DNA of 56,081 nucleotides from an uncultured Saprospiraceae bacterium (GTDB lineage Bacteria; Bacteroidota; Bacteroidia; Chitinophagales; Saprospiraceae), in contig CALFBH010000025.1 in NCBI GenBank assembly GCA_937951615.1, positions 1-56,081 on the forward strand, given 5' to 3'. This document shows, piece by piece, positions 1,080 to 4,069 of this stretch. Made by a program: the position numbers and the translations under genes. The notes beneath the pieces were generated by a model. The model was given only the letters and a program-made list of their open reading frames with translations. It was not told the origin of the DNA and made no database searches. Numbering within the stretch: position 1 is the first letter of the stretch; each line of letters starts with the position of its first letter.

Positions 1080-1106
1080 AATTGGTCAGACACTGTCTGA
1101 CCAATT
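1080..1106. repeat. Perfect palindrome P1 upstream of yhcG-like gene 1
   Basis: Two perfect 13-nt arms (AATTGGTCAGACA and its complement) flank a single central C at 1093. It lies 19 nt before the ATG at 1126. A second hairpin, TTTATGC-catta-GCATAAA (1105-1123), fills the gap and ends 2 nt before the start codon. The core GGTCAGACAcTGTCTGACC recurs at 2251-2269 in front of the deleted YhcG copy (one arm base differs there). Confidence 0.9.
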
Positions 1107-1125
1107 TATGCCATTAGCATAAAAC

Positions 1126-2139
1126 ATGAAAAACATCGTAAAAGATAAAGGTTATAAGGAACTACTGAGCAAGATCGGCAAGACTTATGAGCAAGGGAAG
1201 CAAAGTGCAGTATTAGCTGTCAATACCCACTTAGTAAATACTTATTGGCTAATTGGACAATATATTGTGGAATATGAGCAGCAAGGGAAAGAACGTGCAG
1301 AGTATGGTAAAGGACTCATAAATAGACTAGCAAAAGACCTGTCTAAGCTAATAGGAAAAGGATTTAGTCGCAGTAACCTAATTTATATGCGCCTTTTTTA
1401 TCTTGAATATCCAAAAGGTGAGAAGCCTTCTCACTTATTGAGCTGGTCACATTATGTCGAATTGCTCAAAATTCCAGATAAGCTGGAAAGGAACTTTTAT
1501 CTTCAACAAACAATTCTCGAAAAGTGGTCTATCCCTGAATTAAAACGTCAAAAGAAAGCATCCCTTTTCCTAAGACTGGCAGCTTCAAAGGACAAAGAAG
1601 GGATTTTACAATTATCCAAAGAAGGGCAAAAAATAGAAAAGCCCGAAGACCTCATAAGAGAACCTTATGTGCTGGACTTCCTGAAAATTCCAGAGCCTTA
1701 TCATATCAGTGAATCCGAATTAGAAAGCCGTATTATTGCCCACTTGCAACAATTCTTACTGGAGCTAGGCAAAGGCTTTGCTTTTATCGGAAGGCAATAC
1801 CGTATCACTCTTGGCAATCGCCACCATTATGTTGATTTAGTTTTCTATCACCGCATTTTGAAGTGTTTTGTGTTGATAGACCTAAAAAGAGAAGAAGCAG
1901 ATTATCAGGATGTTGGTCAGATGAATATGTATCTGGGGTATTTTGAAAATGAAGAAAATACAGAAGGGGATCATCCTCCCATCGGCATTGTCCTAGCTAG
2001 AGAAAAAGATGATATTTTGATTCAGTATGCCTTGCATAATATATCGTCTCAACTTTTTGTGAATAAGTATCAACTATATTTACCCAATAGTGAAGAGCTT
2101 AAACAATTAGTTGAGCGGCAATTACGGACAGATGAATGA
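1126..2139 (+). CDS. YhcG/DUF1016 family PD-(D/E)XK nuclease domain protein 1
   Basis: 337 aa. The N-terminal half (about residues 10-170) is the helical DUF1016 N domain, with the typical VNTHLVNTYWLIGQYIVEYEQ and RAEYGK.LI..L..DLSK stretches and the LSWSHYVELLKI motif. The C-terminal half is the YhcG-type PD-(D/E)XK fold, with HHYVDLVFYHR and FVLIDLKRE providing the Asp and the D/E-x-K residues, followed by DVGQMNMYL. The family is predicted to be DNA nucleases and is common in mobile or defence islands; the substrate is unknown. The gene stands alone between palindromes P1 and P2, directly after a recombinase remnant, and its closest local relative is the deleted copy at 2296-2491. Confidence 0.9.
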   Translation: MKNIVKDKGYKELLSKIGKTYEQGKQSAVLAVNTHLVNTYWLIGQYIVEYEQQGKERAEYGKGLINRLAKDLSKLIGKGFSRSNLIYMRLFYLEYPKGEKPSHLLSWSHYVELLKIPDKLERNFYLQQTILEKWSIPELKRQKKASLFLRLAASKDKEGILQLSKEGQKIEKPEDLIREPYVLDFLKIPEPYHISESELESRIIAHLQQFLLELGKGFAFIGRQYRITLGNRHHYVDLVFYHRILKCFVLIDLKREEADYQDVGQMNMYLGYFENEENTEGDHPPIGIVLAREKDDILIQYALHNISSQLFVNKYQLYLPNSEELKQLVERQLRTDE

Positions 2140-2157
2140 TGAAAATTTTTCATTAAC

Positions 2158-2187
2158 TGAATTGTGGTGACACGTCACCACAATTCA
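2158..2187. repeat. Perfect palindrome P2 downstream of yhcG-like gene 1
   Basis: Perfect 14-nt arms (TGAATTGTGGTGAC and complement) flank a 2-nt spacer AC. It starts 19 nt after the stop codon. It shares the outer TGAATT and the central ACAC/GT pattern with P1, P3 and P4, but its stem sequence is different and fully compensated. Confidence 0.9.
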
Positions 2188-2240
2188 AATACCCCATTTT
2201 GTTGATGTTTTACAGTAAAATACGGATTAAAATAAAGTAT

Positions 2241-2279
2241 AAATCGAATTGGTCAGACACTGTCTGACTAATTCGGTTT
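2241..2279. repeat. Palindrome P3 upstream of deleted yhcG copy
   Basis: Arms of 19 nt around a central C at 2260 pair throughout except for two G/T wobbles. The core is nearly identical to that of P1. It lies 16 nt before the ATG of the truncated YhcG copy. Confidence 0.85.
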
Positions 2280-2295
2280 ATTAAAATAAAAATAT

Positions 2296-2491
2296 ATGAA
2301 ATCAGTCATCCAAAAGGATAAATCCTATAAGGATCATACTCACAACTGATAAAGATGAAATACTGGTAGAGTACGCTACAGGAGGGATTACCAATCAATT
2401 ATTCGTTTCAAAATATCAGATATATTTGCCGGATAAGGCTTTACTGGAAAGTCAAGTAAGGGCAATTTTGGAAAGTAGAAAAGAAGAATAG
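2296..2491 (+). pseudogene. Internally deleted YhcG/DUF1016 gene
   Basis: An ATG at 2296 opens MKSVIQKDKSYKDH, matching the N-terminus of the 1126-2139 protein (MKNIVKDKGYKELL). The frame stops at 2347-2349. In another frame the sequence continues with EILVEYATGGITNQLF and VSKYQIYLPD up to a stop at 2489-2491, which matches the extreme C-terminus of the same protein (ILIQYALHNISSQLFVNKYQLYLP). About 270 codons are missing between the two ends, including the whole nuclease core. The copy is therefore dead, but it kept its upstream palindrome. Confidence 0.85.
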
Positions 2492-2493
2492 CC

Positions 2494-2691
2494 TGGTTTA
2501 TAAAATACAGCCTGATTACTTCACACACTGCCCGACGGTCTTTTGCGACTAATGCCTACAAAAATGAAGTACCGATTATTGCTATTATGAAAATTACAAG
2601 GCATCGGTCTGTCAAAAATTTTTTAAATTACATCAAAATTGGGAAAGAGGAAAATGCGGAGCAACTTGCTAATCATCCATTTTTTAAATAA
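2494..2691 (+). pseudogene. 3' remnant of tyrosine recombinase (copy 2)
   Basis: The reading frame encodes TSHTARRSFATNAYKNEVP, then IIAIMKITRHRSVKNFLNYI and KIGKEENAEQLANHPFFK before a stop at 2689-2691. TSHTARRSFAT is the HxxR box of phage-integrase-type tyrosine recombinases, and MKITRHRS corresponds to the usual MKITGHR box with Gly changed to Arg. The catalytic Tyr position is occupied by NYI/K, as in many Bacteroidota integrases. Only about the last 60 residues survive. The stop lies 11 nt before palindrome P4. Confidence 0.85.
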
Positions 2692-2702
2692 TTGTTTTTC
2701 TG

Positions 2703-2743
2703 TTAATTGAATTATGCCAACACTGTTGGCATAATTCAATTAA
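2703..2743. repeat. Perfect 41-nt palindrome P4 upstream of yhcG-like gene 2
   Basis: Perfect 20-nt arms (TTAATTGAATTATGCCAACA and complement) surround a single C at 2723. It ends 40 nt before the ATG at 2784. The outer GAATT and the centre ACACTGT are shared with P1 and P3; the inner stem (TGCCAA/TTGGCA) is specific to this copy. Confidence 0.93.
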
Positions 2744-2783
2744 TAGAATTGTTTAATGTGTTTAAGTCAAAAGAATAAATTAA

Positions 2784-3791
2784 ATGAGCAAATTAAAACC
2801 AATAGACAAGGACTTACTTAATGAACTCGTACAAGTCGTTGAAGAAGGTAAAGATCAAGTCGTTTATCAAGTCAATAGCACCTTAAATTTAGTGTATTGG
2901 CAGGTAGGACACAAGATAAATGAACACATCGTAAAAAACGATAGAGCAGAATATGGAAAGCAAGTTTTTGAAAATCTATCCACAGAGATGAGTAAACGCT
3001 TCGGACGAAGTTTTAGTAAAAGAAATTTACATAGAATGTCGCGTTTTGCTGAAATTTTTCCTGATTTTGAAACCGTCGTCACTCTTTCCCCTCGTCTTAC
3101 ATGGTCGCATTTTATTACGATATTACCCGTAAAAGACCCCGAAGCACGTTTATTCTACGCCCAAAAAATAGCTGATGAAATGTGGAGTGTACGCCATACC
3201 AGAAAGCAGATAGAAAACAAAATTTATGAACGCACTCAAATAGCTGCTATACAAATTGCCCCTCAAAATCCTGAACAAAATACCATCTTTAAAGATCCGT
3301 ATTTCTTAGATTTTCTAGGTTTGAAAGAGAGCTATCTTGAAAATGACTTGGAAGCTGCTATTTTGAAAGAATTAGAATTGTTCTTGCTTGAACTTGGTGC
3401 AGGCTTTACGTTTGTGGAACGTCAGAAAAGAATGATTATTGATGGTGATGACTATAACCTGGACTTGTTGTTTTATCATAGAAAGTTAAAGCGTTTGGTT
3501 GCCATTGATTTGAAAATAGGTAAATTCAAAGCCGCCTATAAAGGACAAATGGAACTTTATCTCAAATGGCTCAACCGTCACGATAAGCAGGAAGGCGAAG
3601 AAAACCCCATCGGACTTATTTTATGTACTGAGGCAGGTCGGGAGCAATTAGAATTACTTGAAATGCACAAAGACGGTATCATGGTTGCGGAATACTGGAC
3701 GGATTTACCTCCGAAAGAAGAACTTCAGGAAAAAATACATTTAGCATTGGAGGAGGCAAGGGAGCGTATTGCAAGGCGAAAGTTAGAGTGA
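2784..3791 (+). CDS. YhcG/DUF1016 family PD-(D/E)XK nuclease domain protein 2
   Basis: 335 aa. Same two-domain plan as the first copy. The N-terminal DUF1016 region has VNSTLNLVYWQVGHKI, RAEYGKQVFENLS and a LTWSHFITILPV motif. The C-terminal PD-(D/E)XK region has DDYNLDLLFYHRKLK and LVAIDLKIGKFKAAYKGQMELY. The sequence is far from copy 1, so it is a different subfamily and not a recent duplicate. It ends 5 bp before the convergent gene at 3797-4069. The C-terminal tail is rich in Glu and Arg. Predicted DNA nuclease; no partner such as a methylase is adjacent. Confidence 0.92.
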   Translation: MSKLKPIDKDLLNELVQVVEEGKDQVVYQVNSTLNLVYWQVGHKINEHIVKNDRAEYGKQVFENLSTEMSKRFGRSFSKRNLHRMSRFAEIFPDFETVVTLSPRLTWSHFITILPVKDPEARLFYAQKIADEMWSVRHTRKQIENKIYERTQIAAIQIAPQNPEQNTIFKDPYFLDFLGLKESYLENDLEAAILKELELFLLELGAGFTFVERQKRMIIDGDDYNLDLLFYHRKLKRLVAIDLKIGKFKAAYKGQMELYLKWLNRHDKQEGEENPIGLILCTEAGREQLELLEMHKDGIMVAEYWTDLPPKEELQEKIHLALEEARERIARRKLE

Positions 3792-3796
3792 TATAT

Positions 3797-4069
3797 TTAA
3801 AGTGGCGTCTGCTCAAAACCCGTCACGCCCTGCTGCTCCGTTGGCAAAAACTGCGTCAGGACTTGCAATACCCCATACTTGGCATCCTCTCCAATGGCTG
3901 AACAATCTTTGTTTTTAAACTCCATAAAAAAGGCTGTTATTCGTCTTGGTAAGTTGGCAAGGTCGGTGGTATCAATATCGTCGGTAATAATCGCAATACG
4001 TCCATCAGGCAAGACCTGGACGCCTTTAACATCCTTTATTTGGATTATTTTTTCTTCTTTGGTAGCCAT
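3797..4069 (-). CDS. Small hypothetical protein (90 aa)
   Basis: 90 aa, no signal peptide or membrane segment, mixed alpha/beta character. The sequence QVLPDGRIAIITDDIDTTDLA is intact and hydrophilic, and a reading frame on the other strand over the same bases looks less protein-like. I do not recognise the family. It converges with the second YhcG gene, with only 5 bp between the stops. The upstream region has no clear -7 box. Confidence 0.55.
   Translation of the reverse strand: MATKEEKIIQIKDVKGVQVLPDGRIAIITDDIDTTDLANLPRRITAFFMEFKNKDCSAIGEDAKYGVLQVLTQFLPTEQQGVTGFEQTPL

Follow-up and report, generated by a model that had tools for sequence, protein, structure and literature searches.

A palindrome within the reading frame of many yhcG (DUF1016) genes, and its flanking copies in an uncultured Saprospiraceae bacterium

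The left part of a contig from an uncultured Saprospiraceae bacterium (Bacteroidota; GenBank assembly GCA_937951615.1, contig CALFBH010000025.1, positions 1 to 56,081 of the forward strand; this whole stretch of 56,081 nucleotides is referred to here as the window) contains two genes for YhcG/DUF1016 proteins, gene A and gene B, a yhcG remnant between them and four palindromes, P1 to P4. Here we describe this locus and show that many yhcG genes carry a palindrome of their own inside the coding sequence. The features are as follows, in window coordinates.

1080–1106, no strand: palindrome P1, arms of 13, centre of 1, perfect (15-nt arms at 1078–1108 with one mismatch)
1126–2139, plus strand: YhcG/DUF1016 gene A, 337 amino acids, DUF1016_N and YhcG_C PD-(D/E)XK domains (PF17761, 4.8e-42; PF06250, 1.2e-57)
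1411–1440, plus strand: degraded in-gene palindrome of gene A, perfect core 1418–1434, centre 1426, 18 nt before the W codon at 1444
2158–2187, no strand: palindrome P2, arms of 14, loop of 2, perfect
2247–2273 with one arm mismatch, or 2238–2281 with two, no strand: palindrome P3, upstream of the remnant
2296–2491, plus strand: yhcG remnant between genes A and B, with an A-like start (judged by eye), an internal deletion and a C-terminal piece
2703–2743, no strand: palindrome P4, arms of 20, perfect (2698–2748 with one mismatch)
2784–3791, plus strand: YhcG/DUF1016 gene B, 335 amino acids (PF17761, 4.5e-43; PF06250, 3.2e-46)
3071–3097, plus strand: homologous place in gene B, not palindromic

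The proteins of genes A and B are 33–34% identical, and both score above the Pfam cut-offs for PF06250 and PF17761, which confirms the identification of two intact YhcG/DUF1016 genes in an earlier sequence-only reading of this DNA. Both also match the PADLOC profile PDC-S02, a phage-defence candidate (5e-132 and 5.5e-127), and phage protection is accordingly a candidate label for them. The remnant contains an open reading frame (ORF) of 63 amino acids (approximately 2300–2488); this ORF corresponds to profile positions 287–341, towards the 3′ end of the gene, and its PF06250 score (5.6e-7) falls under the family cut-off.

P1 lies about 20 bp upstream of gene A and P4 about 40 bp upstream of gene B, and the stem of P3 is close to that of P1. 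Simulation of the window with a first-order Markov model (30 runs, loops of up to 4) predicts 0.53 palindromes with arms of 10 and 0.07 with arms of 11 per 56 kb, and chance therefore does not account for three palindromes inside 1.7 kb with perfect arms of 13, 14 and 20. As single-stranded DNA, P1–P4 fold with z-scores of −5.6 to −11.4 against shuffled sequences. The pattern AATTN6ACACTGTN6AATT matches exactly at P1, P3 and P4 only in the 6.96 Mb of the bacterium's own genome. By eye, no GTAG foot of the kind seen in repetitive extragenic palindromes (REPs) was found in or at P1–P4, and the Bacteroidota-type −7 box motif TAnnTTTG was absent from three stretches upstream of yhcG genes. The sequence-only reading had described all four palindromes, which stand, as does the near-identity of the P1 and P3 stems ahead of gene A and of the A-like remnant (a likeness judged by eye). 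It had also put P2 next to a YhcG gene, which is correct; P2 lies 18 bp behind the stop codon of gene A, however, and not directly ahead of a gene.

The degraded copy inside gene A shares its left outer arm with one relative (L042; L numbers denote loci and G numbers genomes) and its centre and right arm with another (L178), and reads as if it were a mixture of two palindromes. At this locus, flanking copies accompany an inner copy that is degraded in gene A and missing from gene B.

We compiled 213 distinct full-length yhcG genes from 239 loci and the window. One source of loci was genomes of relatives, of which 22 of 60 and 109 of 296 had a match; a second was a scan across species genomes, with 80 loci kept of 580 relatives; and 20 and 80 further stretches were added. 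Of 273 matching ORFs, 56 that were partial and 4 that were duplicates were excluded, and close relatives were kept. The loci are best or listed matches, and the sample leans towards Bacteroidota (170 of 213, with relatives' genomes of the window's phylum counted as such) and towards sequences related to the window proteins; metagenome bins, where a misplaced contig is possible, supply the archaeal and several other records. A palindrome was counted as in-gene if it had an arm score of at least 9, a loop of up to 4 and a centre at profile columns 90–106. Such a palindrome is present in 145 of the 213 genes, near one fixed place within DUF1016_N, just ahead of the LSW(S/T)H motif and typically centred 18 nt before its W codon; elsewhere inside the same genes there are only 15 palindromes. 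The carriers comprise 112 of 170 genes from Bacteroidota (93 of 137 in the set from genome searches plus the window, 19 of 33 in the scan set), 14 of 18 from Bacillota, 6 of 7 from archaeal bins, 3 of 4 from Pseudomonadota and 10 of 14 from other bacteria; for the scan set, taxa are those given in the titles of the records, which are mostly metagenome bins. On viral contigs, 10 of 28 loci have a palindrome six codons before the W, some of these 10 being near-identical.

In a test without preselection, we counted base pairs at distances 2–9 around the centre 18 nt before the W codon in 212 motif-aligned genes. At least 7 of the 8 positions pair in 127 genes; at any other offset between −60 and +29, no more than 8 genes do so. 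The distribution has two peaks, with 127 genes at 7–8 pairs and 61 at 0–3. At least 9 of 10 pairs occur in 70 genes, compared with 0.49 expected under synonymous recoding with each gene's codon usage. This excess shows that yhcG DNA is palindromic beyond the requirements of the protein, and rules out a coincidence of coding alone.

The in-gene palindromes are 19–35 bp in length and perfect or near-perfect, with outer ends that are mostly AATT-like and centres such as ACA-N-TGT or GCA-N-TGC. Some genes have multiple in-frame units, two to four in a row (L024, L031, L045, L054 and L250). Of the 152 odd palindromes, 151 have their centre on codon position 1; the pair table and the half-site analysis omit the even-centred ones (6 of 158). 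All four pair types are found at stem positions 3–9, where 142–149 of 152 pairs are intact in these palindromes chosen for symmetry, and the half-sites differ between genes (97 distinct in 139 genes). The central base on the coding strand is C in 74 cases, G in 62, T in 11 and A in 5. Across the 135 genes in which 6 or more of the 8 positions pair, mismatches comprise 19 G.T, 30 A.C and 23 others, and this lack of a G–U preference argues for symmetry at the level of DNA rather than RNA. In most sampled members of the family, the palindrome is fixed in place, in frame, gene-specific and strand-symmetric. Two loci (L037 and L062) and two viral loci (L294 and L305) have a second similar palindrome or near-palindrome about 40 codons before the usual site, where the protein of L037 and L062 again reads like IVAxLxRQL.

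This form of palindrome is largely confined to yhcG. An exact pattern search gave matches in 20 of 296 genomes of the window's phylum. Among the 19 loci examined besides the own genome, one per genome, 17 lie inside yhcG or its relics (including L271, in which the palindrome is lost), and the other two are not palindromic. The looser pattern AATTN7CANTGN7AATT was found at 60 places in 19 genomes, mostly picked for having several yhcG genes. Of these places, 38 are palindromic, with 24 falling inside a yhcG gene or relic, 6 at up to about 200 bp from one and 8 elsewhere, and 22 are not (21 elsewhere and 1 in a relic), with labels set by hand from coordinates and locus readings (from coordinates alone for G285:C68 and G285:C120; relic L348 is a weak match, E 0.0019). 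That 30 of 38 palindromic sites are in or beside yhcG supports the earlier proposal that gene and palindrome belong together. A dispersed REP-like repeat was rejected, as the form is largely confined to yhcG. The eight other sites include six free copies, outside recognisable yhcG, in three yhcG-rich genomes of one genus (G241, G285 and G340; L343–L346 are free palindromes of the same form from these genomes), one of which follows what is presumably the end of hsdM. Of the remaining two, one is intergenic and lies some 1.6 kb away from a yhcG in G005; the other, in G250, is AT-rich and possibly a chance occurrence.

Palindromes outside the gene are a minority. One lies within 150 bp upstream in 30 of 210 genes (some are terminator-like), with a YhcG-like centre in 18 of 210, and one within 100 bp downstream in 15 of 213 (some are ordinary terminators). 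The proposal of the sequence-only reading that each YhcG gene sits behind a palindrome is not supported in that form: most of the related DUF1016 genes have none upstream, the outcome that this reading had itself named as a refutation. Its companion claim, that palindrome sequence follows protein relatedness, is supported (Mantel r = 0.55 between half-sites and proteins, against a maximum of 0.09 in 500 permutations). Upstream palindromes with a YhcG-like centre precede 10 of 67 genes without an inner palindrome and 8 of 143 with one (Fisher P = 0.034, a weak and post hoc difference). When flanking palindromes with no more than two mismatches were compared with the inner stem of their own gene, 9 of 24 matched at 8 or more of 9 positions, versus a mean of 0.40 and a maximum of 5 in 2000 random pairings. 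The same stem occurs before, inside and behind the gene in L050, and further examples are L047, L087, L230 and L242 (27 identical bases); the copy that shares the in-gene stem is upstream in L047, L050, L052, L087 and L242.

Comparison of close relatives indicates that stems turn over quickly and in a compensated manner. Genes for proteins that are 94–95% identical have TCCGAGTC or TCCGAGAC versus TCCGCAAC, with both arms changed. L042, from the window's genus and 87% identical to gene A, has the P1 stem upstream with a flipped centre and a different stem inside; the stem inside L042 is in turn the upstream stem of L048 (78% to gene A). The 26-nt core of P2 is the upstream palindrome of L065, a relative of gene B (79%) from the same genus, and G005 has a stem related to P4 ahead of a yhcG that is divided between two frames (L060). 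A recombination joint between the N- and C-terminal halves was also considered and rejected, as the halves show no discordance (N–C correlation 0.705, control 0.682).

The palindromes also occur in Escherichia coli, for which we compared K-12 with 13 other strains (a hand-picked spread from 60 listed, not a random sample; two of the 13 are without the 5′ part). K-12 yhcG (b3220) has three in-frame palindromes that start at approximately coding positions 303, 338 and 378, a fourth 15 bp behind the stop codon and none within 200 bp upstream. In the 13 further strains, the fourth palindrome reads CTGCAG...CTGCAG or, in three of them, CTCCAG...CTGGAG, with C or G at the centre, a compensated change between genes that are 96–98% identical (98.2% for L306 versus L309). 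The second and third units were lost together and in frame in L307 and L312 (1128 to 1050 bp, 78 bp), and a similar loss in L315 comes with a frameshift. SCU-116 and an ST131 strain, both of which are without yhcG, have the order gltD–palindrome–nanQ, with one palindrome at the nanQ border as in strains with the gene; this palindrome is the exact 27-base first in-gene unit of six strains examined. In LR-71-1, a shorter palindrome next to gltD precedes IS1, and a 3′ piece of yhcG comes after that. A 31-bp query with the nanQ-border palindrome was found in 5082 of 5426 E. coli genomes (copies within yhcG included), and at least 80% of the yhcG query in 3309 of 5426. As far as the arrangement of these loci tells, the presence of yhcG varies at a palindrome, and either gain or loss could account for this. 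The gene is often broken in E. coli: among the 60 matches listed, the match overlaps a transposase in 8 and covers only part of the gene in 5 others, and IS629, IS1 or IS2 adjoins in the four such loci examined.

We tentatively suggest, as a reading that we consider quite possible rather than probable, that YhcG acts on its own palindrome, the two forming a nuclease–palindrome pair in which the palindrome lies within the reading frame of the nuclease. Holliday-junction resolvases act on four-way junctions, which an extruded palindrome would imitate. Fold recognition for YhcG gave archaeal Holliday-junction resolvases with low scores, and YraN is the group nearest to its C-terminal domain, according to the available part of Kosinski et al. 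2005 (PMC1189080), where no mention of a palindrome was found. YhcG, as a predicted PD-(D/E)XK nuclease that resembles such resolvases, would bind its palindrome and probably nick or resolve it; the palindrome could be recognised as the site of a dimer or, once extruded, as a hairpin or cruciform. Repair of the palindrome, or templated synthesis through it, could then copy one arm onto the other, and the same repair could flip the centre, delete or duplicate units and copy the palindrome between neighbouring sites; template switching may be a repair step of this process. The stronger version, which we regard as rather doubtful, is that YhcG is a self-addressed nuclease: a private in-frame palindrome tags yhcG, and the action of the gene product rewrites, multiplies and spreads the tag. 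If this were true, gene and target would form a single evolving unit, selfish or defensive, which would occur in E. coli K-12 and across many bacterial and probably archaeal lineages.

Several observations weigh against an action of YhcG on its palindrome. No in-gene palindrome is detectable in 68 of the 213 genes, gene B included; the copy in gene A folds weakly (z = −1.7, equalled by 15 of 200 shuffles); and the 8 of 38 palindromic sites noted above lie away from yhcG. Most flanking palindromes (15 of 24) match the inner stem at only 2–7 of 9 positions, several of them being terminator-like, and shared descent can account for the correlation between half-sites and proteins. Paralogs that share a genome show no avoidance of one another's stems (29 pairs; observed 0.401, expected 0.381), and private specificity in that sense finds no support. 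The gltD side has no palindrome in the ten strains with an uninterrupted gltD–yhcG stretch; with a palindrome on the nanQ side and none on the gltD side, E. coli yhcG does not resemble a simple palindrome-flanked transposon. In the accessible portion of the literature we found no report of binding or cleavage by any YhcG. Finally, matching arms and flipped centres can arise by polymerase template switching without a nuclease, as the available text of a study of yeast describes (PMC8604942).

This last point is the basis of the rival that survives best, which we consider somewhat unlikely: mutational upkeep only, in which an ancient palindrome sits in a tolerant loop of the protein and is kept symmetric by template switching, with YhcG uninvolved. 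Inverted repeats in yeast coding sequences, in the available part of the same study, undergo arm homogenisation and spacer inversion (PMC8604942). The signatures of this process, arms that become alike and centres that invert, are seen in yhcG of the E. coli strains, between L042 and P1, and family-wide in centres of both orientations. However, the yeast events concern 39 different genes, as reported there (PMC8604942), whereas in yhcG one homologous place is palindromic in most sampled genes of one family. Template switching leaves this single place unexplained (with only the 15 palindromes elsewhere in 213 genes), and it leaves unexplained the stem matches hundreds of base pairs apart, unless intermolecular switching is added.

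Autoregulation, by which the palindromes would be operators of a YhcG dimer and upstream and in-gene sites would work together by looping or as a roadblock, seems to us unlikely. P1 and P4 stand about 20–40 bp ahead of start codons, strand symmetry fits a dimer site, and the five loci with an upstream copy of the in-gene stem have the paired sites that this model would use; an operator role is possible for the upstream copies. The site of a dimeric repressor would, however, be expected in the promoter region of most members, whereas the upstream palindromes of yhcG are a minority (30 of 210), and operator activity cannot be the general function. K-12 has its outer palindrome behind the gene rather than ahead of it, the palindrome remains at the locus in the two E. 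coli strains without yhcG, and an operator does not require a near-perfect 27-bp palindrome with private stems.

We give little credence to a mobile palindrome, resembling the Rickettsia palindromic elements (RPEs), that inserts in frame into yhcG and is moved by an unrelated enzyme. The in-frame multiples (the five loci above and the three E. coli units), the clean loss of whole units and the few free copies elsewhere would suit it, but near-restriction to one homologous position in one gene family would not. Moreover, the palindrome-less gene B has the same local protein length as the palindrome-bearing L062 and L056, from which it follows that no insert was added there. That the hairpin acts in mRNA, by translation pausing or mRNA processing, is hardly credible: each palindrome would, from its sequence, also form an RNA stem, but the G.T mismatches that RNA tolerates are not commoner than A.C (19 versus 30).

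Among known systems, the REPtrons of REP and TnpA-REP (RAYT) are similar to the yhcG case in pairing short palindromes with an enzyme that is nuclease-like. That enzyme, TnpA-REP, belongs to the HuH tyrosine type, whereas the proteins adjoining P1–P4 are of the PD-(D/E)XK type. REPs are extragenic and usually number above 100 copies per genome, according to the available text of PMC2817692, in contrast to a palindrome inside the coding sequence of the enzyme and in few copies (three exact ones in the own genome). RPEs, as described in the accessible part of PMC4316617, are elements of about 100–150 nt that enter intergenic regions, functional RNAs and coding sequences, the last without disruption of the ORF. 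The yhcG palindrome likewise keeps the reading frame (codon position 1 in 151 of 152). It differs from RPEs in its length of 19–35 bp and its one main position in one nuclease family across several phyla, and it is not spread over unrelated genes (30 of 38 sites in or beside yhcG, 8 of 38 elsewhere). A nuclease–palindrome pair of this kind would possibly be a second, unrelated solution to enzyme–palindrome pairing of the REP/RAYT type.

We found no function for the widespread YhcG family in the accessible portion of the literature, and no publication on a yhcG/DUF1016 palindrome in a search that mostly did not extend to subscription journals. Among solved structures, no relative was convincing; there were two weak matches to a mitochondrial ribosomal protein. 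A gene-specific palindrome at a fixed place is a concrete candidate substrate for YhcG, a candidate anti-phage nuclease, and the presence of the gene in a model organism (E. coli K-12 b3220) makes the question testable. The family also offers a strong natural example of symmetry that is imposed on protein-coding sequence at the level of DNA.

Other features of the window surround the yhcG genes. The extreme end of the contig (1–107) is a tandem array with a 7-bp unit, ACCATCG. The gene to the left of the yhcG pair has matches of 60–63% identity in 5 of 8 other genomes searched, and no yhcG ORF was found in the loci around these copies. A 90-amino-acid ORF to the right of gene B (3797–4069) has no match in eight related genomes searched and three more matches in its own genome (71–82% identity, one partial). 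One further ORF lies between the remnant and gene B.

2587–2691, plus strand: small ORF, 34 amino acids, upstream of P4, with the C-terminal end KIGKEENAEQLANHPFFK

Twenty-four residues of this small ORF recur at 987–1058, upstream of P1 (83%, a partial copy). It may be part of the yhcG module, and pieces resembling it, some of them weak matches, lie near yhcG in L042, L060, L065 and L040.

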